64,000 nt of DNA from positions 48,198 to 112,197 of the IMG/VR virus record IMGVR_UViG_3300032268_001296. The stretch is one strand, 5' to 3'. Numbering within the stretch: the stretch's first letter is position 1; each line of letters begins with the position of its first letter. Source of the DNA: a virus. Shown here in pieces: positions 9,974 through 48,211 of the stretch. The notes beneath the pieces were generated by a model. That model did no database searches. It saw nothing but the letters and a program-made list of their open reading frames with translations, and had not been told where the DNA came from. Both the position numbers and the translations under genes were made by a program.

Positions 9974-11626
9974 TTATGCCTCACAAGTTTTGCAAGACAT
10001 GATAGAACGAGCTAATTCTTGAGCTGGATTAGCGCTTCTTTGGTAATACATGCCCTTGATTCCATTTTCCCAAGCAAAAATCATTAATTCATTTACATCT
10101 TTTGGAGATGCATTTGGAGGAATCATGATATTTAAGCTCTGTCCTTGATCAATACTCTTTTGTCTTTGCGCTGCTTGAATAACGATTTCTTTTTGAGAAA
10201 TCTCTCCAAAAGTTTTGAAAACTTCTTTTTCTTGCTCAGTTAAGAAATCAAGATGCTGAACACTTCCACCGTGAACTAGAATAGATTTCCAAATTTCAGT
10301 AGTGTCAAAACCTTTAGAATTTAGAAGCTCTTTCAAGTGTGGGTTTTTGTAAGTGAATTTTCCCTTTGCAAGATCTTTTACAAAGTAGTTGCTGTTTAAT
10401 GGTTCAATCGACGGAGAAACTTGTCCTAAGATAAAAGAACTTGATGTTGTTGGAGCAACAGCCAAAGTCGTAGAATTTCTGCGACCATAACCGTTTAGCA
10501 GAGGAGCTTCGCCGAACAACTTAGAAAGCTCTTCGGAAGCTTTGTCTGCGCGAGTTCTAATGCTTTTCCAAATTGAAGAATTCAGAAGCTTAGCATCCAT
10601 AGATTCAAAGCTAATCATCTTCGATTGAAGGTATGTGTGCCAACCTAAGACACCAACTCCAAGAGCACGCTGATTAATAGCGAAACGTCGTGGAGCTTCC
10701 ATAAACGGCATATCCTGCGTTTTGTTAATAAACTCGGTCATAACCGCGTCCAAGAAGAAAACAAGAGTTTCTACAGCATCTGTCTTTTCAATTTCATCCC
10801 ACTTTTCAAGATTCAGAGAAGACAGGTTACAAACAAAAGATTCATCTTCGGAACTCGAAAGCATGATTTCATTGCAAAGGTTACTTGCATTGATCTTAAG
10901 ATTTTTATCCTTATACACTTGTGGAGCTTGATTGTTAGCATTATCAGAAAAGAACAAATATGGATATCCACTTTCAAATCTCTTCTTAATGACAAGACCC
11001 CAAATCTTTCGAAGATCTTTATCTCCATCAAGCATCTTCTTCATCCATTCATCAGAAACACAAACACCAATAGACATTTCTTGAATTTCATGACCATCAG
11101 AACGAATTTTCAAGAATTCTTCAATATCTGGATGATCAATCGGAAGATAAGCTGCAAAAGATCCTCTGCGAACGTTGCCCTGAGATACAACATTCATAAG
11201 CTTATCGTAAAGCTCCATGAAATGCACAGCTCCAGTTGATTCGCCTCCAGAACTAATTGGCGCTCCTCGTCCACGAAGCTCTCCAAAGTATGCAGAGGTG
11301 CCACCTCCAGCTTTCGTCATCATTGCGACTTCGGAAAGCTTATGCCCAGCAATCTGCTCCAGCTTATCAGAGATATAAGAACCAAAACAGCTAATAGGCA
11401 ATCCTCTTGATCTTCCGAAATTACTCCAAATTGGAGAAGACAAAGAATAAAAACCACGAGACATATAAAATTCGAATTTTTCTGCAAAACCAGAGATGCC
11501 TAGAAGGTTCTCAGCTGTGTTCGCGATTTCTAAAATTCTTTGCTCGGCGGTTTCGCCAGCAAGCAAGTAACCTCTCTCAAGAAACTTTCTTGAGTCTGCA
11601 TTAAGCCAATAGTATTTTTCAGTCAT
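9974..11626 (-). CDS. nrdA: Ribonucleotide reductase large subunit
   Basis: A 550-residue class I ribonucleotide reductase alpha chain, which reduces ribonucleotides for phage DNA synthesis. The active-site triad motif Asn-x-Cys-x-Glu is visible as SNLCNEIML, the first redox Cys in LPISCFGSYISD, the radical-path region in APTTSSSFILGQVSPSIEPL, and the C-terminal redox pair in SCKTCEA. There is no N-terminal ATP-cone, so allosteric overall-activity control should be absent; the length (550 against about 760 in E. coli) fits that loss. It is followed upstream by a homing endonuclease and nrdB. Confidence 0.95.
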   Translation of the reverse strand: MTEKYYWLNADSRKFLERGYLLAGETAEQRILEIANTAENLLGISGFAEKFEFYMSRGFYSLSSPIWSNFGRSRGLPISCFGSYISDKLEQIAGHKLSEVAMMTKAGGGTSAYFGELRGRGAPISSGGESTGAVHFMELYDKLMNVVSQGNVRRGSFAAYLPIDHPDIEEFLKIRSDGHEIQEMSIGVCVSDEWMKKMLDGDKDLRKIWGLVIKKRFESGYPYLFFSDNANNQAPQVYKDKNLKINASNLCNEIMLSSSEDESFVCNLSSLNLEKWDEIEKTDAVETLVFFLDAVMTEFINKTQDMPFMEAPRRFAINQRALGVGVLGWHTYLQSKMISFESMDAKLLNSSIWKSIRTRADKASEELSKLFGEAPLLNGYGRRNSTTLAVAPTTSSSFILGQVSPSIEPLNSNYFVKDLAKGKFTYKNPHLKELLNSKGFDTTEIWKSILVHGGSVQHLDFLTEQEKEVFKTFGEISQKEIVIQAAQRQKSIDQGQSLNIMIPPNASPKDVNELMIFAWENGIKGMYYQRSANPAQELARSIMSCKTCEA

Positions 11627-17733: not shown

Positions 17734-18330
17734 TTAGAAAGATTGTAAAAAAGTTCTTCTCCATCCTCCAGCTGTGCCAGTGCATACATATAAACCACTA
17801 CCACTAACTCTCAATTCTCCAAATTGTCCAGCTTGAGATGAAGCTCCACTGAATTGAGGCAATAAGACTTTGATTCCAGAATTAAATGATCCTCCACCGA
17901 AAGTATTAAATCCTTGATCTCCAAAAAAATTTTGAGCCCTTGAGCCAAAATTATTTATTGTATCTCCTCCTTCATTTTGGTCTCCAAAAGCATTTGTTAG
18001 ACAATTTACACCAAAAGTATTTTGTTGAGCATCTTGCCCAAACTCATTATTAAGAGATGAATTTCCAAAATAATTAGTTGCGAAACCTCCAAAATCATTA
18101 GTTGATGCTATAACACCAAAACTATTATTTGATGCTCCATTACCAAAACTTGCAGCAGCTATATTGCTCGCGAATGTCTTAATTCCACTTATAGTTTGTG
18201 CGCCAGTTCTAGTAACAACATTAGCTCCATCCCAATTGACTGCTGCATTATTACCCAATGTTATATTGGTACCACTTTGATTTAATAAATACTGAAAAGT
18301 AGTATTAACTGGATTTGGACCTAAGTTCAT
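17734..18330 (-). CDS. Tail-fibre-like protein with N-x-F-G repeats
   Basis: A 198-residue protein. Residues 65-150 contain about nine copies of a degenerate N-x-F-G unit (NSFG, NDFG, NYFG, NEFG, NTFG, NAFG, NNFG, NFFG, NTFG) at intervals of 8-13 residues, suggesting a beta-solenoid shaft. Upstream lies GAQTISGIKTFASNIAA, a common phage fibre repeat, and the C-terminus (FGELRVSGSGLYVCTGTAGGW) is a fibre-tip type sequence. It may form part of a fibre or spike. GTGTAA lies 10 nt before its ATG. Confidence 0.72.
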   Translation of the reverse strand: MNLGPNPVNTTFQYLLNQSGTNITLGNNAAVNWDGANVVTRTGAQTISGIKTFASNIAAASFGNGASNNSFGVIASTNDFGGFATNYFGNSSLNNEFGQDAQQNTFGVNCLTNAFGDQNEGGDTINNFGSRAQNFFGDQGFNTFGGGSFNSGIKVLLPQFSGASSQAGQFGELRVSGSGLYVCTGTAGGWRRTFLQSF

Positions 18331-21273: not shown

Positions 21274-24200
21274 TTACTTTCTCAATGAGCCTCCCAATCT
21301 CTTTTCGTCTTGAATAACTTTAAGAACAACATCTTTGATTTGTCGTGCAAGCTGTTGTTTTTGTTCTGATGCGCCTCCATCGGTTGTTTGAGAAGATTTG
21401 CCAGTTGATCCATCAACATTGATGGTGATATTTCCAGCTGCGCTAGAAGCTTCAATAAGCTCGTCAAGCTTGGCGATGAGCTTCTCGTTCAACTCTTCAG
21501 TCTTTTCTTCTGTGACGATGCTTCCTGCGCCAGCATTGAGCGCTTGTAGATTACCAGCACCAATGTTTTGAGCAGCAGAGCGATTCATAATGAATTCGCC
21601 GCCTGAAAGCATTGCTGGAACTGTGTCGATTCCAGCTCTGAAAGGAATTGAACCTCCAGTTGCAAATCTTTCGTTTGCGCGTTCTTCTATATACTGTCCT
21701 TGCGCGTCAAATGGACCAGTAGTGAATGCTGGTATGTTATTATTATAAACACCATTATTAGATCCTCCAAAATTTAATGGAGAAACTCCTAAACCTCCCA
21801 AAGCAGAATTTACTTCATTTATTTGATCATTATCATATGGATTCACATTATATCCATTTGGAGCATTTTTATTTTTTGATGTTGAATATGATCCCCCAGA
21901 ACTAAATAAATTAGATAAACCACCTTTTCCTTCAAAACCACTCCAAATTCCTTTAGCCGCATCAGTTAATCGTGCTGTTCCAGTTGCACCAGATCCAGCG
22001 TAAGCCTTAAAGAATCCAGATCCAGCAGCTAATACCACCGACAATATGAGTTGCTTTTTCAGTGCATCTTTTTCCGCTTCTGCTTGTTTTCTTGCTTCAG
22101 CTTGAGCTTGCATTTCTTGCATATACAAACCAAAAGCTTGTTCTTTCGCAGCTCTAGTTGCTTCAGCTTGAGGACTGTTATTGCGTCCAAAATTTGTCAA
22201 TCTAACACTTTCTGGTTCCAAGTTTATAGAAGCATAATTTCCTTGATTTATTATCTGATCTCTAGATCCAGAAGTATATCCTTGAGTTGCAAACTTAAGT
22301 AAGTTGCGAGTTCCTTGAATTCCGCCAAGTCCATAAGTTCCTGGAGTAAAGAAACCTCCTTGACCACTTTGTATCATTCCTCCTTTTGCGTAACCGCCTA
22401 ATGTTCCATTATTGATTGCTTCTAAAAATTGAGGTCCATATTTACCAACTGACTTTTTGTTGATAACATATTCGCCGCCCATTAACATTGCAGGGACATC
22501 ATCTTTGGTTCCCGATCCACCTGAAATCATTCCTCCAGAGGCTTTGCCATTTCCTGCAAAAATTTTAGAAATGGATGAAAATACTCCTGAAGATGAATTT
22601 GGATTTGATCCAAGAATCGAATCTATAGCATTAGACATTAATTTCTTGTTCAATTGTCTTACAAAATCTAAAGCTCCAGCTCTAAGAGTATCACTTAATG
22701 ATTTTCCACCTTCAATAGCTTCAGAAATACCATCTACTAAATTATTTTTAAATTGAACGGAAGCATCAACGATTGTCTTATTAAGCTCCAACGTTCTTTC
22801 TTCGTTAGTTTTACTAAACTCTTCTGCAAACAACTGAGGGATTGTTTTTACCTGTCTTTTTCTCGCTATTCTTGCCGCTTCTTCTGGGCTTTGTCCTCTT
22901 TGCTGATTAAGAGTTTCTATTTCATAAGCAATTTCAGCGTTTCTTCTTCCAGATATAGAAGTTAATTTTTCTAATTCTAAATCTTGAATTTTTCGATCAA
23001 TGATATCTGTAGAATCAAGCAGAGATCTTCTAAACATTTCTAAAGCTGATATAACTGGCTCTATTGCTCCAGCTTCTCTTGTGCGAGCATCTGCTGCCGC
23101 TTGGGATGATTCAGCGTCTAATTGAAGACTTTCAGATTCTTGTTTCAATTTTAGGATAAAGTCTTTGATAGCTTGATTATCTTCTTCATTAAATCTAGTC
23201 GCGCCAATAAGGTTTTCAGCTTCTGTTATTAAGCTGCTCATAGTTTTCGCGCTTTCAAAAGCATTCCTATATGTCATTGCTGAAATATCATCTGTTGGTT
23301 TTGCTAAACCCAACAATTCCCCCCTTTTTTCTTCGAGCATTTTATTATAATTTGCAGCATTTTGCACAGCCACAGTATTAGCTTCAATCGCAGCGATTTG
23401 AGCGTCTATTACTCTAATTTCTTCAGTTGATCTACCTAATTTTGAAGCTTGTAATTGAGAAATTCGCTGAGTATTTGAAAACTCAGATCTTCTTGAAGAT
23501 ATGTCTATACCAAAAGCTCTTTGTTGGGAAGCTCTTTGTGCGGAAGAGATTATATCTTTTATTGTTGATGCTTGGTTTTTATATTCCTCTGTTTTTTGTT
23601 GTTGAGTTTTTAAATCTTCCTTATCTAAATTATATTTCTTTAGAAGATTATCTAAAATCTGTTCATTTTCTTTTCTCTGAGCTTCTGTGAGATTAGTTCC
23701 AGTACCCAACAATATATTTATTTCTCCTAGTAATTTAGTAACTGTATCTTTATTTTTGAAATCATCTTCTGAAAAAGTTTTTAATTGTTCTTCTAGCTTA
23801 ATTGTTTGTTTTTTATCTGCTACAAGCAATTTAGCTTTATCAATCTGTCCTTTGAGAAGATTAGAAGTTTCGTCTATTAATTTTCTATCTAAATCGCGCA
23901 AAGCTATTTTATTCTCTAAACTTCTAATATCTTTTTCGCTTAAATTATTAAGCTCCTTGGCAGAAAGCAATTGAAGATCTAATTCTTGAGTAGTTCTTTG
24001 TTGTGCAATTGAAAGATCAATAGTATTCTTTAATTGATTTTGAGCATAAGAAATATTCATTAAATCTAATGCTTCTTTAGCAGTATCTGCAAATGCATTC
24101 TTAAGATCTATAGTTGCATCATATATTCTAAGAATTTCACTTTTTACAGCTTCGCTATTTATGTCAAATCCTATTTTTTGATCATCCGTTAATTGGCTTA

Positions 24201-27200
24201 AAATTGCATTTTGAATCATTCCTATCCCTGTATTTGGATTTGGAGTAGATCCACTTTTTAAATTTTCCAAATCAGACATTATATCTTGTCTAGATTTACC
24301 AATAAACTCTTTTCCAATAGTTCCTGTTGGAGATAAATCTAAATTTCTTTTTGCATTTTTTAACTGCGATGATGTAAATATTAATTTAGAAAAAGAACCT
24401 GTTAATTCATCTACTTCTTTAACAGTTATTTTCCCATCTGCTGATTTTTTTCTTATTTCATCCCACATTCTGTTATAGCTCACACCAGCAGCGTCTGCAT
24501 TTTTAACAACATCTACTAAACTTTTTTCTAATTCTCCAGCTGTAAAGAAATCTGAGCCTTCAAAATCAGCCATAAAACGAGCTGTCATGCTCTCTCTTGC
24601 TGCTCCTCTGACTAAACCTATTGCCGAAGATTCTATTTTCTTTTTTCCTGGTTCAGATAAATTTTCAAATGTAAATGCCGCATTTTTCACCGCTTCGGAC
24701 ATCTTGGCTATATTAGCTGTAGCTGCTTTAGTAATACCATAATATTCATCCATTATTTTTCCACCAGCCGAAAAAGATGCTATTGCTCCAGCTGCTGCTA
24801 ATCCATATGGCCCTAACTTTGCTAACGCTGGACCTACTTTTCCGCCAATTTGGCCTAAACCTTGAATAGCGAATGCTGCTGTCACAAAACCTCCAGCACT
24901 TTCTGATACTATATTAGTATATTTTGCAAGTTGTGATGAAGCATCACTTGTAGCTCCAGTCAATATACTAAATGCTCCTTGCAACGCAAAGATAGTTCCA
25001 AGCATATCTTTTTGTCCACCTTGTGCTTGAACAGTAGCTTCTTTACCAGTTAAGGTTTTGCCTTTACCAAAAGCTCCTTTTGACTGTTCAATGATTGCTT
25101 TTCGAGTTGCATCTGAAGATTTTTTAAGAGCTTCTCTATCATCTTCTAGAGCTTTTATTCTATCTTGCGCTGCTTTTTTGTTTTTACCTCTAGCTTGTTT
25201 TTCATCAGCCGTTGCTTTTCTTAATTCAGTTATAAGATCTGCATAAGCTTTTCCATAATTTCTAGATTCTTCCGCTAAAGCATCACTTCTTGTTTTACCT
25301 ACGTATCCAGAAATGTCTGGCGCATCTGCATAATTCGGCACAAATCCACTTGCCGCACCATATGTTTGCGGATTCATGCCTTCTTTTCTTGCTCTATTGA
25401 TTCCTTGAAATCCACCTGCTGGTTCATCACGGCGATTAGCAACCATTAATCCCATTGGATTAGCCGCGTTTTTAAGAGATGAATTTTTGTCTATGTAGAT
25501 TTGAGAAGCAGGAACTCCCGCAGCCATTTCACGGTTAACTGCATCTTTAAGAGGATTTGCAAAATTTGGCAAGAAGCCTTTTGCGGCTGTTTTCTTTTTT
25601 TTGCTGTCTATATAGTTGAGCATTTTATCAACTACGTCTCTAGCTGGAGATCCAGTAATTCGCGCAAAACCTGGATCAATAAGACTAGCAACTCCACCAT
25701 TAGATGCCATTTCTCTCAATAAAGTCAGCGATCCAATCGGATCTGAAGGATAAGTTGAAAACTTACTCAAGTAATTCTCAGCGTTTTTATTAAGTATATA
25801 ATTAGATCCATGTAAATCAGTAAGATCTAAACCTTTGGTTTTTACAGCGGAGCGTAGAGTTCCAAGTCCAAACAATCTAGCTTTGTCAGAACCAAGTGCT
25901 ATCTTTCCAAGTTTACCAGATATAATTTCTTTTCTTATTGCTCCTCGTCTGTTGGATTCATTGAAACCAGACAATGTTTTTGGACCATAAATACCTGGGA
26001 TGTTCAAATATCTATTGATATACTGACTGATCAACCATTCCTGAGAAAGTGCGTTTTTTGGACCATCTTTATAAAACTTCTTAACACCAACATCTATTCC
26101 CTCTTTTGTTCCAAGTCTTAAAAATCTAGCTTCTGCACCAGATCCAATTTCTCTACTTTTGCTAACAAAGTTTGGGATGTAACCCTTAGCGGCATTAGGA
26201 GATTTTCTAGCTTTGGATTGTTGACTTATTTGAGATAATATTTTTGGAGCGATGTCTCCATCGTTCATTGACTTTTTGATAAGAGTATTAACTTGACCTT
26301 GAAAATTTTCCGTAGACCCACCTCCTCTTTTCGCATCACCTCTTACAGCTTTTACTCCCAACATTTGATTCATTGCAGCTGGGTTAGTAAAATCAAATGG
26401 TCTATTTTCATTTTTTGGATCAAATGAATCAGAAAGACCTTTCATTGTAGTCAATGCAGCTTTACTAGCAGCTTCAAAAAGCTGACCTTCTGCACCCGCA
26501 GGAAGAATTCCTCCTGTGGATGTAGATTTAAGATTTCCTAATTGATCTGCAAATTCTCCCGCTTGCATTCCAGAATAAAGTCGCCCATATAAAGATTGAG
26601 CGAGCGTCACGATTGGACCAGCAAAAAGTTTATTGATTTCTGAAGATATTTGTTCGAAATTCTTTTTAGTAGGAACTCCAGTTTGTTGAATATTGCTTAA
26701 AATGATTTGATCATCATCTAAAATACCTCGCGGCTTATTTTTTTTAAAATCAGAACCTTTTAGTTTTGCCGAAACATATCCAGAAGCATCTCCATTCCTC
26801 GGAGTGACTAAAGCGATTCCTCCTAAAGTATTTGCGTCAATTTTGAAATCGAGAGCGCCTTCTTTAAGTTTCTGCTGTCTTACCTTATCTTCTGTTTGTT
26901 TTCTTTGTGTAGCAATAGATGGATTTCTTTTAAGAACGTTATCAATATTTGATTGGTAAGTTTCTAGGCCATTAGGGAAAACGAATTTTTTTCCACCTGG
27001 TTCTTTTCTGTAGCTTTCTAAATCTGGATAATATTGTCTAATAGTGTCTGCTAAATCAGCAAAGTTTGGTATAAATCCAAAAGAAAGATTTTTTATATAT
27101 TTCCCAAAATCATCAATTTTTCTAGGTCTTCCATATTTATTCGATCTATATTTATCAGTATTGATTAAATCTTGTTTTAACGTTTTTGCTTTTGAAAAAT

Positions 27201-29544
27201 TTCCTCTATCTGATTCATCAGAATGAACTAGCAAACCATTTACTTTGATATTATCTTTATTTTTTGTCCAAACATCTAAAGGTAAATTACGACCATAATT
27301 TTCTATATTCGCTCTTAAAAATTTTAATTTTACATCACTATCGTCCCAAGACCCACTTTTAACCTCTAAAAGAGAAGTTGGACCTTTGAAGCCGTCCACT
27401 GCTGAATTTTCCTTTCCGAACATTCCTCCAGTAGTATATCCATACTGCTTAGCGATTCTTTTCTCATAATCATTAGTTGATTCTCCTTTATTTCTAGGGA
27501 CGTACAATTTTTGATATCCATTTCCAATCAAGTTAACATTATCGTCTTTTGATAATCTTCCATCTGAAGATTGAGATATATTAATTTTTGGCACAAGAGT
27601 CGTACTAAAATATTTTACTATTTCAGAAACTTTTGCAAAATTTGGAATCAATCCGCCAGATGCAGTGATCTTCTTAGCTCCAGATGGCAAGCCCATAGAG
27701 CGAACCATGTCTCTGTTAAAGATAGCTGTTCCGCCACTTCCTCCAAAATTAGGAACCGCATATTCTCCAGTATGAGCTACAATAGATCCTTTTTTGCCTT
27801 GACCAAAATTAAAATTAGGAATAACAACTGGACGATCTCCAGCTTTTGCACCACCAACACCTTTTTTAATGTCGGATGATTCTTGCGATACAGCAGGCAT
27901 GTATCCGCCAGCCGCTTTAGGAACTCTTAAGCCTTCTCCAGAGCTTCTTACTCCTTGTTGATAAAGAGGAGCTGCTAGCGAGCTTGCTGTAGAAGCCATT
28001 CTTCTCATTGCTGCTTCTTGCATTACAATAGCGTCAGACATGACTTTGATCTGAGCCGTGCGATTTCCTTCTAATGCAAAAAGTTGACGCTGAAGATTGA
28101 TATTCTTAGAAAGAGCTGAAGCAATAGACTGTTCAACATTTTGAATCTCTTTTGCTGCTTTACCAATTCCAAAGAAACCTTTTAAGCTTGCAAAACCAAA
28201 TTGCGCAAGATCTTTTGAAAGCTTTAAGATAATAGCTGCAAATAAAGCTAAGCCTGGACCTGTAACAAGATTTCCAATACCTTTAGCTAAACCTCTGAAA
28301 ACATCTCCCAACGCACTTTCTTCGCCAAGAATTTTTTGGATACTTTCTAGAAGGCCATTAAAGAATCCAAGTAAACTTTTAGCACTGTCAGTGATGCCAA
28401 TTTTTCCCAATGTAGCTCCAAGCTGTTCTGCACTTAAAGATGTCTTATTGATTAAAGCAGCTAATGTAACATTTAGAGCCGCATTCTTTTCATAAGCTTG
28501 ATTGGTGCTTTTCAAAGATACTTCGGTAGCTTTAAAAGCTACTGAAGATTGACTGCTCAAATCCTCTAAAGTTGCTAATAATTTATCAATCTGGAATCCG
28601 CCACCAACTTTTTCAGTAATCTCTGCGAGCTGTACTTGATTAAGACTTTTAATTGTTGCCGCTAAGTTTTCGAGAAGTTTTGTAGCTGGCAGTATCTTGC
28701 CTTGAACATCTGTGACAGAAACTCCAAGCTGTTGTAAAGCTTCTAATGTATCTGTTCTTTGCAATCTTGTGAAGATCGTTTTAAACGAGTTACCAATAAC
28801 TGCTCCACCAACTGATGTCTTTTCTTGAACTGCCGTAATAATACCAACCAACTCATCAAAAGAAACTCCAGCCTGTTTCGCAACAGATGACGATCTCTTA
28901 AGACCTTCAATCAAATCCTTTTCAGAAACTGAATATTTTTGAGAAACAGTAACTAATTTGTTTAAAACTTCAGATGTTGTAATGCCTGTGCTTTTAAAAG
29001 CATTAACTGCCGCAGTTAAACCAGAAACAGATCTTTCTGCATCCAATCCAGAAAGGCGAGTTAGAATAAGAGCATCATTAATTCTTTTAAGAGACTCTTC
29101 AGTACTTAAACCTTGTCTAGCTAATTCAAGAGCGCCTTTTGCAACAGCATCAAATGATTGACCTGTATTTTTAGCTACGTTGAATAAAGAGTTTCCGAAT
29201 TTGTCTAATTCAGAAGAACTTTTTTGGAAGACAGAATTGATTTCTGTTAAAGACTTTTCAACTGCAATAGTGTTCTTAACCAAAGAACTAAAAGCGCTAG
29301 ATACACTATTAATAATACCAACAGAAGCTCCGAACGCAAATACGCGAGCATTTGCCGCTTCCATCGACTTAGTGAATTCGTCAGCTTGTCCAGTAATGCG
29401 GCCAAGAGGTTGAGCTAATGCATTAATTTGACGGGAATTCGTTCCCAAATTAATTTGAGCGCCCTTGCCCGCATTTTTCAATGCTGCTTGAATGCTTGCT
29501 TCTAACCCTGTTTGTGTTACTGGTATCTGAACTGACGCTGGCAT
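21274..29544 (-). CDS. Tape measure protein with inserted cargo-like domains
   Basis: A 2756-residue protein. Residues 60-340 form the TP901-like tape measure core (GASVGIINSVSSAFSSLV, VEKSLTEINSVF, FDELVGIITAVQEK). At 1.5 angstrom per residue the helical rule gives a tail near 0.4 micrometre. Residues 637-1400 are unusual: five G-[FYL]-[ILV]-PN-[FY]-[AV] motifs (about 634, 823, 1121, 1323 and 1400) separate modules with PD-(D/E)XK-like motifs (aa 714-728; aa 1022, 1050, 1069) and kinase-like motifs (aa 1132-1291). Coiled coils follow, with hydrophobic segments near 1580. VPAMLMGGEYVINKKSVG and VPAMLSGGEFIMNRSAA near 2358 and 2648 are typical phage TMP C-terminal repeats. A ribosome site AAAGGAG lies before the ATG. 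Confidence 0.9.
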   Translation of the reverse strand: MPASVQIPVTQTGLEASIQAALKNAGKGAQINLGTNSRQINALAQPLGRITGQADEFTKSMEAANARVFAFGASVGIINSVSSAFSSLVKNTIAVEKSLTEINSVFQKSSSELDKFGNSLFNVAKNTGQSFDAVAKGALELARQGLSTEESLKRINDALILTRLSGLDAERSVSGLTAAVNAFKSTGITTSEVLNKLVTVSQKYSVSEKDLIEGLKRSSSVAKQAGVSFDELVGIITAVQEKTSVGGAVIGNSFKTIFTRLQRTDTLEALQQLGVSVTDVQGKILPATKLLENLAATIKSLNQVQLAEITEKVGGGFQIDKLLATLEDLSSQSSVAFKATEVSLKSTNQAYEKNAALNVTLAALINKTSLSAEQLGATLGKIGITDSAKSLLGFFNGLLESIQKILGEESALGDVFRGLAKGIGNLVTGPGLALFAAIILKLSKDLAQFGFASLKGFFGIGKAAKEIQNVEQSIASALSKNINLQRQLFALEGNRTAQIKVMSDAIVMQEAAMRRMASTASSLAAPLYQQGVRSSGEGLRVPKAAGGYMPAVSQESSDIKKGVGGAKAGDRPVVIPNFNFGQGKKGSIVAHTGEYAVPNFGGSGGTAIFNRDMVRSMGLPSGAKKITASGGLIPNFAKVSEIVKYFSTTLVPKINISQSSDGRLSKDDNVNLIGNGYQKLYVPRNKGESTNDYEKRIAKQYGYTTGGMFGKENSAVDGFKGPTSLLEVKSGSWDDSDVKLKFLRANIENYGRNLPLDVWTKNKDNIKVNGLLVHSDESDRGNFSKAKTLKQDLINTDKYRSNKYGRPRKIDDFGKYIKNLSFGFIPNFADLADTIRQYYPDLESYRKEPGGKKFVFPNGLETYQSNIDNVLKRNPSIATQRKQTEDKVRQQKLKEGALDFKIDANTLGGIALVTPRNGDASGYVSAKLKGSDFKKNKPRGILDDDQIILSNIQQTGVPTKKNFEQISSEINKLFAGPIVTLAQSLYGRLYSGMQAGEFADQLGNLKSTSTGGILPAGAEGQLFEAASKAALTTMKGLSDSFDPKNENRPFDFTNPAAMNQMLGVKAVRGDAKRGGGSTENFQGQVNTLIKKSMNDGDIAPKILSQISQQSKARKSPNAAKGYIPNFVSKSREIGSGAEARFLRLGTKEGIDVGVKKFYKDGPKNALSQEWLISQYINRYLNIPGIYGPKTLSGFNESNRRGAIRKEIISGKLGKIALGSDKARLFGLGTLRSAVKTKGLDLTDLHGSNYILNKNAENYLSKFSTYPSDPIGSLTLLREMASNGGVASLIDPGFARITGSPARDVVDKMLNYIDSKKKKTAAKGFLPNFANPLKDAVNREMAAGVPASQIYIDKNSSLKNAANPMGLMVANRRDEPAGGFQGINRARKEGMNPQTYGAASGFVPNYADAPDISGYVGKTRSDALAEESRNYGKAYADLITELRKATADEKQARGKNKKAAQDRIKALEDDREALKKSSDATRKAIIEQSKGAFGKGKTLTGKEATVQAQGGQKDMLGTIFALQGAFSILTGATSDASSQLAKYTNIVSESAGGFVTAAFAIQGLGQIGGKVGPALAKLGPYGLAAAGAIASFSAGGKIMDEYYGITKAATANIAKMSEAVKNAAFTFENLSEPGKKKIESSAIGLVRGAARESMTARFMADFEGSDFFTAGELEKSLVDVVKNADAAGVSYNRMWDEIRKKSADGKITVKEVDELTGSFSKLIFTSSQLKNAKRNLDLSPTGTIGKEFIGKSRQDIMSDLENLKSGSTPNPNTGIGMIQNAILSQLTDDQKIGFDINSEAVKSEILRIYDATIDLKNAFADTAKEALDLMNISYAQNQLKNTIDLSIAQQRTTQELDLQLLSAKELNNLSEKDIRSLENKIALRDLDRKLIDETSNLLKGQIDKAKLLVADKKQTIKLEEQLKTFSEDDFKNKDTVTKLLGEINILLGTGTNLTEAQRKENEQILDNLLKKYNLDKEDLKTQQQKTEEYKNQASTIKDIISSAQRASQQRAFGIDISSRRSEFSNTQRISQLQASKLGRSTEEIRVIDAQIAAIEANTVAVQNAANYNKMLEEKRGELLGLAKPTDDISAMTYRNAFESAKTMSSLITEAENLIGATRFNEEDNQAIKDFILKLKQESESLQLDAESSQAAADARTREAGAIEPVISALEMFRRSLLDSTDIIDRKIQDLELEKLTSISGRRNAEIAYEIETLNQQRGQSPEEAARIARKRQVKTIPQLFAEEFSKTNEERTLELNKTIVDASVQFKNNLVDGISEAIEGGKSLSDTLRAGALDFVRQLNKKLMSNAIDSILGSNPNSSSGVFSSISKIFAGNGKASGGMISGGSGTKDDVPAMLMGGEYVINKKSVGKYGPQFLEAINNGTLGGYAKGGMIQSGQGGFFTPGTYGLGGIQGTRNLLKFATQGYTSGSRDQIINQGNYASINLEPESVRLTNFGRNNSPQAEATRAAKEQAFGLYMQEMQAQAEARKQAEAEKDALKKQLILSVVLAAGSGFFKAYAGSGATGTARLTDAAKGIWSGFEGKGGLSNLFSSGGSYSTSKNKNAPNGYNVNPYDNDQINEVNSALGGLGVSPLNFGGSNNGVYNNNIPAFTTGPFDAQGQYIEERANERFATGGSIPFRAGIDTVPAMLSGGEFIMNRSAAQNIGAGNLQALNAGAGSIVTEEKTEELNEKLIAKLDELIEASSAAGNITINVDGSTGKSSQTTDGGASEQKQQLARQIKDVVLKVIQDEKRLGGSLRK

Positions 29545-41668: not shown

Positions 41669-43528
41669 TTAATTAATAAACATTGGAGTGAATGTTGCTT
41701 GAGTGTTTTCAACTGGAGACGCCATCATGTCATAGTATAAATTCATCATCCAATTTCCTAGAACCAATGTAGAGTAAGAGTCTTTTCTTGCTTTGTCAGC
41801 TCCTCTTTGTTTTTTAAGGTTTGCTGGTAAATCAAAACTTTGAGTACCTTGGCTTGAGCTGGTTACTTGAATTAAAGCACATTGAACTTTAATCATGTCA
41901 ACGTTATCTTTTAAATGCTCAATAAAATCAATCATTTTTGCACCCGACTCTTTCTCGCCTTCTATTCTAGAGTATTTTAAATCTGCAATTGGAATATTGG
42001 CGGATTTTTGTTTGGAGAAATCATCATTCATAGCCATGCTCGCAAACCATATTTTTTTATGATCAAATGCCGATTGTAAAAGCTCGTTTGCATATCTAAT
42101 CCAGAAAGAGCTTGGTTTTCTTAAGAATACTATTCTTCTGCTTTCTAAATTGTATTGATTTCTAGCATCTCGCAAAGCTTTATCATATTCTTGGGTGTTG
42201 TCTAAATCAGCGTCGAAACAATCTAGTTTAAAATTATTCTTTTTGAATAACTCGCTTTCGTTGCAGGAATTCAAAAATTGAACTCCACCGTTATAGTCTC
42301 CAACAACAGCAACAACGTTGAAGTGTTTCATTAAGTAATAAAAATACTCAATGTGCCTTTTTAGATTCGTTCCAGAAAGCGCGTAGGAATGCACTACAAC
42401 GCCTGTTCTTTGATCTGGGATAAGTTTGATGACTTGCATCGAGAAATCGTCTGAGCCATCGCTCTCGGACCAAGAAGGGTCGAAAGAAACAATATACTTG
42501 GCTTTTGGATCTCCTATAACTTCGACACACTGCCCTTCTCCGTCGATTATAGTGCATTGTGACATCTTACTAACCTTGAAGTATCCCGAACTATCATCAG
42601 TGAATACAGAGCCGAATTCTCGCTCAAATTGAGCAACGCTCATTGTTGCTTTAGATTGGTCCAAAAGGTTTGCATCATAAAGCTGTTCAGGAGCGCAATC
42701 ATAACTCAAATGCATAATTACTCGATGAGCTTTATCCTTTTGGTCTGGATTCATTATCAGATTTTCATACTGCAAATAAAGCTTATATAAATATTCAAAT
42801 CTATAACTTGCAGATGAAAGTCCAATGATTTTGTTATGAGGCCAAATATGACGCTCAGATTCTTCCATTTTGCCTTCTTTTATAAGCTTGGTTTCCAAGT
42901 CGTAAACTTGTTGTCTTTCAGTTGGATTTTCTACAACAGCCAAGAACGGCAAAATAACTTCATTTAGAATTTTTTCTGGCATCAAAAGAAGCTCGTCAAT
43001 AATCATTCTTTGGAATCTGAAACCACGAAGCTTTTCTCCATCGCCTAATGGCAGAGCTGTAATTTTACTTCTGCCAATTTCCATGACCCATTCATCATTG
43101 CTTTTAGATATTCTGGTAATACATTGAGATAGTAGAGAGGCTTTCGGACTCTTAGCGATATCTTCAATCTTTCTAAAAATCATCTTAGACTGTCTGAACG
43201 ACTTACTAATAATCCCGATATGAACACCTTGATTAAATATCGCATCTAAAATAGCAAATACAGCTGTGGAGAATGACTTTGAAAGACCTCGACTCCAAAT
43301 ACCCAAAAAGTAATCTGTTTCCATCATCGCTTTAATTGCCATGTGCTGGAATGGAAATAGACTTACCCCAGTAATTAATTCTGAAGAAAAAGATGGATTT
43401 TCTCGCAAGAACTTATACAAAAGAACCTTTGCTTTTTTTTCATCAATGAATCCTTTACAATCAATGATTTCTTGATTTATATTCTTGAATTTTTTATTTA
43501 ATTTTTGCGATCCTTCGTGCCAACTCAT
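41669..43528 (-). CDS. terL: Terminase large subunit
   Basis: A 619-residue packaging motor. The ATPase Walker A is WSRGLSKSF (near residue 82), Walker B is MIIDELLLM (near residue 170), and a coupling SSASYRFEYLY follows. The RNaseH-like nuclease has SFDPSWSESDGS and VVAVVGDYNGGVQFL, and a later LKYSRIEGEKESGAKMIDF region. Length is in the range of large-phage TerL. It uses a standard AAAGGAA ribosome site and overlaps the ERCC4-type nuclease gene by 4 nt. Confidence 0.93.
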   Translation of the reverse strand: MSWHEGSQKLNKKFKNINQEIIDCKGFIDEKKAKVLLYKFLRENPSFSSELITGVSLFPFQHMAIKAMMETDYFLGIWSRGLSKSFSTAVFAILDAIFNQGVHIGIISKSFRQSKMIFRKIEDIAKSPKASLLSQCITRISKSNDEWVMEIGRSKITALPLGDGEKLRGFRFQRMIIDELLLMPEKILNEVILPFLAVVENPTERQQVYDLETKLIKEGKMEESERHIWPHNKIIGLSSASYRFEYLYKLYLQYENLIMNPDQKDKAHRVIMHLSYDCAPEQLYDANLLDQSKATMSVAQFEREFGSVFTDDSSGYFKVSKMSQCTIIDGEGQCVEVIGDPKAKYIVSFDPSWSESDGSDDFSMQVIKLIPDQRTGVVVHSYALSGTNLKRHIEYFYYLMKHFNVVAVVGDYNGGVQFLNSCNESELFKKNNFKLDCFDADLDNTQEYDKALRDARNQYNLESRRIVFLRKPSSFWIRYANELLQSAFDHKKIWFASMAMNDDFSKQKSANIPIADLKYSRIEGEKESGAKMIDFIEHLKDNVDMIKVQCALIQVTSSSQGTQSFDLPANLKKQRGADKARKDSYSTLVLGNWMMNLYYDMMASPVENTQATFTPMFIN

Positions 43529-47413: not shown

Positions 47414-48211
47414 TCAAAGAACGATCTCTCTTAATGAAATATCTCCTGCTAAAATGCCTCCTTCTTCCATGGAAATATTTTGAGAAACAATGCGCGAATT
47501 TGATGACATGGATAAAGGCTGAATAAATATAGAGCTATTATCATCAGCTTTAACGTCTATACTTATCACATCTCCATATCCAGTATAATCAATAAAATTG
47601 CCTATGTTTGTTGCTTTGATTGATAATTCTTTTTCAACACTGTCTAAAAACATTTTTTGAGCAAACTTTTCCCCCAAATTAAATACAGGAGTTCTATTAC
47701 AAGAAACTTGGTAAGATATGGAAGAATAGTTTTTATCAGATAGTAAATCGCCATTAGTGATTAATGTTTTGTACCCATGAGATAAAGAGCTGCTTGGAGG
47801 TTCATTTGTGGTGCCAACAAACGGTTGATTGATTGGGGGATTGTTGCTTATAAATTCCGCAGAGATTAAGATCGGCGCAAATGGAGATATATCAATTCTT
47901 GCGCTACTGCAATAACAAGAAGAGAATTGTGATGATCCTATTTTTAATAAAGCTGCTCTATCTCCAGTAAGAGCCTCAAACAAAAGACTTGGAAATGGAT
48001 ACTGACTTGGTTTATCTGCCACCATATTAATAGATATTTTTGTAGCGGTAGGTCCACCAATTCGGAAGTTATTGTTTTGATTTGGAGCTAAAATGCGAGA
48101 TGGTTCTAAAGATGCTGCATAAGATATGCTTACAGATTTTGCGACAGCGAAATAATCTTCTCCAAAATATTCTGCAATCACTGGTACTTGATTGTGTTTT
48201 ATTACTGGCAT
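47414..48211 (-). CDS. Tail-tube-fold paralogue, 265 aa
   Basis: A 265-residue beta-rich protein sharing the paralogue layout with the 20481 product: an early VSISYAASLEPSR strand, ISYQVSCNRTPVFNLGEKF, and a C-terminal strand near VSQNISMEEGGILAG. Its position, far from the tail genes and next to phoH, is unusual for a tube-like protein. It may be a structural protein duplicated into this operon. GTGTAA occurs 46 nt upstream, too far for the leaderless class. Confidence 0.55.
   Translation of the reverse strand: MPVIKHNQVPVIAEYFGEDYFAVAKSVSISYAASLEPSRILAPNQNNNFRIGGPTATKISINMVADKPSQYPFPSLLFEALTGDRAALLKIGSSQFSSCYCSSARIDISPFAPILISAEFISNNPPINQPFVGTTNEPPSSSLSHGYKTLITNGDLLSDKNYSSISYQVSCNRTPVFNLGEKFAQKMFLDSVEKELSIKATNIGNFIDYTGYGDVISIDVKADDNSSIFIQPLSMSSNSRIVSQNISMEEGGILAGDISLREIVL

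Follow-up and report, generated by a model that had tools for sequence, protein, structure and literature searches.

A kinase-like module in an array of linker-bounded cassettes of a phage tape measure protein

The tape measure protein and its kinase-like module

The tape measure protein determines the length of the phage tail and normally goes into the cell together with the DNA. In this study, we analysed a kinase-like module in the tape measure protein encoded by a 64,000-nucleotide stretch of viral DNA (IMG/VR record IMGVR_UViG_3300032268_001296, positions 48,198 to 112,197), which is referred to as the window. The tape measure gene lies in a phage gene cluster with the terminase large subunit at 41669-43528, and it encodes 2,756 residues in a single open frame. 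A Pfam scan matched residues 124-314 to PF10145 PhageMin_Tail (E 2.2e-32), and tape measure families of PHROG matched the protein with a best E of 2.1e-49. The first 400 residues matched tape measures of cultured phages at about 26% identity in a tblastn search. These results bear out the initial annotation, which had placed the module in a tape measure and had read four kinase motifs in residues of about 1125-1322; all four were present as quoted.

As shown in Table 1, the module carries the ordered catalytic set of the protein-kinase-like superfamily, namely the Gly loop, the VAIK Lys, the helix-C Glu, the catalytic Asp and Asn, and the DxG. Among the 62 open frames of at least 150 amino acids in the window, an ordered gapped motif (Gly loop, Lys, D..N, DxG) had its only fit in the module. 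The same motif fitted 111 of 20,000 shuffled copies of the module (0.6%). The module ended about 30 residues past the DxG, and the spacing from the catalytic Asp to the DxG was 47 residues, compared with 32 in the homologue L160b.

Homologues of the module were found on six further kinds of contig. Five in IMG/VR showed about 83, 52, 52, 49 and 48% identity, and the tape measure of L160 contained two further copies, of 33 and 43% identity. The two copies in L160 (2648-3334 and 3869-4447) were 40% identical to each other, with two short cassettes between them. One candidate homologue, L007, was rejected as an unrelated protein containing NYILNKNA. The kinase module was not found in GTDB genomes. 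In a nine-row alignment that included the divergent L038 module, 14 columns were invariant, and most of them were kinase catalytic positions. They included both glycines of GxG, the helix-C Glu, the pre-hinge Lys-Glu pair, the Asp and Asn of catalysis, and the Asp and Gly of the DxG. The VAIK-type lysine was retained in every close homologue; in L038 alone it was present (VFKDF) but misplaced by MAFFT. Retention of these residues in homologues of 33-52% identity appears more telling than the motif alone.

Profile comparison tied two more distant modules to the window's family: the second kinase-like module of L103 (E 3.9e-6, full length) and the L038/L069 module (E 1.1e-5). A search with the family profile also retrieved the L038 record (E 8.8e-4). 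As a control, eight profiles of non-kinase modules scored 0.11 or worse against the family. The dN/dS ratio was about 0.19 for the window versus L011 and about 0.15 for L014 versus L034; the components for these two most similar pairs were 0.12/0.64 and 0.12/0.81. Because the ratios were about 0.15-0.19, these comparisons indicate that the kinase-like domain is under purifying selection.

Linkers and exchange of cassettes

Both edges of the kinase module are copies of a short linker, G[FY][IVL]PN[FY], which occurs five times in the tape measure of the window. We found 369 linkers over 86 distinct tape measure relatives, compared with 0.4 in shuffled proteins, with the consensus AAxG[FY][IV]PNFA. 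This linker, which may serve as a signal for cleavage, docking or threading, was almost invariant, and the modules that flank it were unrelated. Cutting at the linkers gave 287 modules in 68 clusters.

A tree was built from the N-terminal part of 40 tape measures, and at least six gains or losses of the window's kinase were required on it. L013/L087 showed a 71% match to the window through residue 1139 and then continued directly with the terminal module at the place of the kinase; they are without exactly the kinase unit. L071 grouped with the kinase-bearing L002 yet had no kinase module. L082 and its sister L074 each had a kinase-like module following the large nuclease-like module; that of L082 was of the window's type, and that of L074, in the same slot, was of another. 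Ordered kinase motifs were also found in modules of L038/L069, L018/L074 with L036/L098, L130, L103 (two) and L137. Only the L038 module and the second L103 module had a profile link to the window's family, and the other kinase-like assignments are by motif. Matches of the motif scan in L114, L119 and L105 look like chance. The kinase module is one among many exchangeable linker-bounded cassettes.

Several disparate enzyme domains per polypeptide were found in this tape measure family, including kinase-like, GNAT, PD-(D/E)XK-like and P-loop cassettes, among others. The window's own tape measure bears the kinase-like module and two modules that are nuclease-like by motif. A cassette of L095 (4447-4998) was a GNAT acetyltransferase (PF00583, E 6.8e-7, above the cut-off), and the representative of a 17-member cluster contained a Walker A motif. 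Matches to ParB_N (0.0069) and to a HIGH-nucleotidyltransferase-associated domain (0.0039) fell below the cut-off. Motif reading further points to candidate HAD-phosphatase-like, ADP-ribosyltransferase-like and HExxH peptidase-like modules. A GNAT among the cassettes of the family is consistent with the company expected of effectors.

PD-(D/E)XK-like modules, as assigned by motif, were the commonest cassettes in the family. The 77-residue terminal cassette, NPMGLMVANRRDEPAGG, was highly conserved and was present in two copies in L016; alone, it matched 180 viral stretches. In GTDB, the terminal module was found on four contigs of metagenome-assembled genomes (three Flavobacteria and one Verrucomicrobiales), which are possibly mis-binned phage. 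The tape measure of L095 also bears P-loop plus nucleotidyltransferase-like, metallopeptidase-like and HAD-like cassettes, and a cassette of L112 (4876-5550) shows an ADP-ribosyltransferase-like pattern by motif (LYRGQ ... TSFSTSKTVAKDF). Elsewhere in the window, 9974-11626 encodes a ribonucleotide reductase large subunit of merely 550 amino acids (phrog_84, E 3.4e-148), and 17734-18330 encodes a small protein of the tail cluster with N(S/N)FG-type motif repeats, which looks fibre-like.

Table 1. Coordinates in the window of the tape measure gene, the kinase-like module with its motifs, the linkers and the adjoining cassettes
Feature	Position	Strand	Basis
Tape measure protein, 2,756 aa, bearing the cassettes	21274..29544	minus	PF10145, E 2.2e-32; PHROG tape measure families to 2.1e-49
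Kinase-like module with leading linker, residues 1121-1322	25579..26184	minus	motifs, homologues, conserved catalytic set, fold of homologue
Glycine-rich loop GSGAEARFLRLG, residue 1134	26110..26145	minus	GxG invariant in nine aligned members
VAIK-like lysine, VGVKKFYKDG, residue 1152	26062..26091	minus	Lys retained in all close homologues
Helix C glutamate, QEWL	26032..26043	minus	Glu invariant in nine aligned members; inside predicted helix 41-59
Pre-hinge strand, IRKEI	25924..25938	minus	KE invariant in nine aligned members
Catalytic loop DLHGSNYIL, residue 1243	25792..25818	minus	Asp and Asn invariant in nine aligned members
Metal-binding DxG (DFG-like), LIDPGFARI, residue 1288	25657..25683	minus	D and G invariant in nine aligned members
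Linker 1, GLIPNF	27637..27654	minus	
Linker 2, GFIPNF	27061..27078	minus	
Linker 3, GYIPNF, start of kinase cassette	26167..26184	minus	
Linker 4, GFLPNF, end of kinase cassette	25561..25578	minus	
Linker 5, GFVPNY	25330..25347	minus	
Adjoining cassette, PD-(D/E)XK-like (AVDGF...LLEVKSG)	27079..27654	minus	cluster of nine modules; nuclease call by motif only
Adjoining cassette, PD-(D/E)XK-like (GQLFEAA...RPFDF...GDAKR)	26185..27078	minus	largest cluster, 67 modules; nuclease call by motif only
Terminal 77-aa cassette, last in most relatives	25348..25578	minus	

Predicted fold, proposed delivery and alternatives

A second AlphaFold run was performed with the homologue L160b as query and three more distant rows added. 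The resulting model had a pLDDT of 62.9, with most of the N-lobe at about 79-87; here and in the model of the window module, the N-lobe strands and helix C followed one another as in kinases. Foldseek against the PDB gave RIO2 as the best match (E 1.3e-3, probability 1.00), followed by Legionella Lpg2603, OspG, Bud32/PRPK, NleH and APH(2"). In VIA, the model reached Z 7.8 to RIO2 (3.6 A, 143 residues) and 7.7 to OspG, and all of the 50 rows were kinase-like. The best matches in a search against viral models were also protein kinases. The initial annotation had proposed a RIO or aminoglycoside-kinase-like fold and had called for structure prediction and fold comparison. This proposal agrees with the homologue's model and the catalytic set. 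Sequence profiles of known kinase families did not match the module, and the low-confidence model of the window module itself yielded no convincing match. The Pfam scan assigned the module to no RIO, Bud32 or APH family, and the likeness is at the fold level only. We regard a kinase fold as well supported for the family, and for the window module by homology.

Our results make it fairly probable that the module is a catalytically competent minimal kinase, which is delivered with the tape measure and modifies a host target. Residues 1121-1322 would form a minimal kinase-like domain in which the ATP-binding and phosphotransfer residues are retained, with little or no C-terminal lobe, comparable to the core of RIO2/Bud32 and to the small effector kinases OspG and NleH. 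The cassettes would be carried in the virion as parts of the tape measure, pass the tail, probably unfolded, enter the cell with the DNA, fold upon release and act immediately on host targets. For the kinase, the target would be a host protein (possibly RNA or a small molecule), whose phosphorylation would aid takeover or blunt defence. From these data we infer ATP use, phosphotransfer, tail passage, cell entry, a substrate and a benefit. It may be speculated that a small RIO/OspG-like core is suited to refolding after ejection. The lambda tape measure is labelled by the inner-membrane protein ManZ and meets ManZ and SNIPE during injection (PMC13190303). By analogy with such tape measure proteins of other phages, delivery with the DNA is plausible. 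Unfolded passage has been proposed for other tape-measure-type cargo (PMC13277306), and the T7 kinase, as cited in PMC5512222, is a precedent for a phage that phosphorylates host proteins.

Several points weigh against a delivered kinase. The module matched no known kinase profile, and Pfam, PHROG and PDB sequence searches gave only chance-level matches for both the module and its relatives. The AlphaFold model of the window module was poor (pLDDT 54.5), with its elements in kinase order; about half of its top 50 Foldseek rows were kinases, the best E was 0.48, and there was no VIA row. In the model of L160b, the catalytic-loop and DxG region was the low-confidence part, and the VIA Z of 7.8 falls slightly below 8. 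The window module was absent from cultured phages by tblastn, and therefore no experimental record for it exists; the L038 module and the linker/terminal module were likewise not found there. Passage of a folded 200-residue domain through the tail tube is doubtful, and unfolded travel is probably needed. No substrate can be named from the present data.

A kinase fold may also act on RNA or on a small molecule, like the RNA kinase Ark1 and the aminoglycoside phosphotransferases (APH); the module would then still be a delivered enzyme. Structures of Ark1 and APH(2") were among the matches of the homologue's model, and many members of the APH class have a loop of the D-L-H-x-x-N form. However, RIO2, Bud32/PRPK and OspG scored at least as well, and no sequence feature separates the protein, RNA and small-molecule kinase options. 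We regard this alternative as unlikely. It is quite unlikely, in our judgement, that the module is a pseudokinase or nucleotide-binding domain inside the virion, serving as a tail spacer, folding switch or docking site and not as an injected enzyme. Such a role would suit a module which belongs to a structural protein and whose catalytic activity we infer, but the catalytic Lys, Glu, Asp, Asn and DxG are retained in homologues of 33-52% identity. Moreover, the close relatives L087, L071, L077 and L097 lack the module although their tape measures are similar in other respects, and therefore tails do not need it.

It is very improbable that the motifs are coincidental and that the domain has another fold. 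This possibility draws on the missing profile match, the poor model of the window module and the rate at which the loose motif fits shuffled modules, but the conserved columns coincide with catalytic positions, and the predicted fold of the homologue finds its matches among kinases alone. The same ordered motifs also recur in several other modules that occupy slots of this kind.

Significance and related systems

Taken with a minimal kinase carried by the tape measure, the cassette array suggests that the tape measure may be the means by which these phages bring enzymes into bacteria. For this large uncultured phage group, we put the chances at about even that the tape measure serves as a platform for general enzyme delivery, in which linker-bounded and freely exchanged enzymes pass along the tail as a threaded string and are set free in the host upon infection. 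The enzymes on such a platform would include several kinase kinds, nucleases, an acetyltransferase, and phosphatase-like, ADP-ribosyltransferase-like and peptidase-like members. Given delivery of the cassettes, the phage tail would inject a programmable enzyme set ahead of any phage gene expression, as a natural counterpart of secretion-system effectors. This would account for the great length of some tape measures (up to about 4,000 residues in this set), which would vary with the cassettes and not simply with the tail. It would also indicate early host targets and supply a natural linker for cargo loading, and cytoplasmic delivery of enzymatic cargo by tape measures becomes a directly testable question. 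The literature search found no phage tape measure reported to bear a kinase or an array of cassettes, which is weak evidence of novelty as its coverage was incomplete, with most subscription journals and preprints outside.

Muralytic domains occur in the tape measure proteins of mycobacteriophages and T5. They are also enzymes inside a tape measure, but they act on the cell wall at entry, whereas a kinase depends on ATP and would have its site of action in the cytoplasm. Among the best fold matches of the homologue (RIO2, Bud32/PRPK, OspG/NleH, HopBF1 and APH(2")), OspG and NleH likewise count as minimal kinases that are injected. These proteins differ from the module by an identity of about 10-18%, no profile-level match, and other genes and delivery machines.

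Tape-measure-related proteins are reconfigurable effectors of contractile systems (PMC13277306). The Sle1/Tme effectors of actinobacterial contractile injection systems likewise have a tape-measure-related protein with a variable functional domain (PMC13277306). However, those systems are host-owned, the effector is C-terminal and no kinase is mentioned, whereas here the tape measure is the phage's own. MuF-fused effectors, as described via PMC5512222, likewise join exchangeable enzyme domains, thought to be injected, to a virion structural protein, but as fusions to a head protein and not as internal cassettes of a tail tape measure.

The polyvalent proteins of phages and conjugative elements include kinases without a C-lobe (Iyer et al. 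2017, PMC5512222). As in the tape measures described here, many unrelated effector-like domains are found per polypeptide and are thought to enter with the DNA, the kinase domain appears reduced with its active site retained, and variation is cassette-like. GNAT, ParB-like, metallopeptidase and ADP-ribosyltransferase domains are also named for polyvalent proteins. Their kinases lose the C-terminal subdomain; the window module ends about 30 residues past the DxG, in line with such a loss, but the model of L160b is weak in that part. Those kinases are further marked by an insert between the phosphotransfer His and Asp; the spacings from the catalytic Asp to the DxG in the window and in L160b are 47 and 32 residues. 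The defining conserved glutamine of those kinases has no invariant counterpart here, where the strand IRKE(I/V) has an invariant KE and no invariant Gln. The scaffold also differs: it is not a tape measure in the polyvalent proteins (the word "tape" is absent from PMC5512222), whereas here it is the tail tape measure, with a dedicated repeated linker between the modules. The tape measure cassettes are a variant of the injected polyvalent protein theme.
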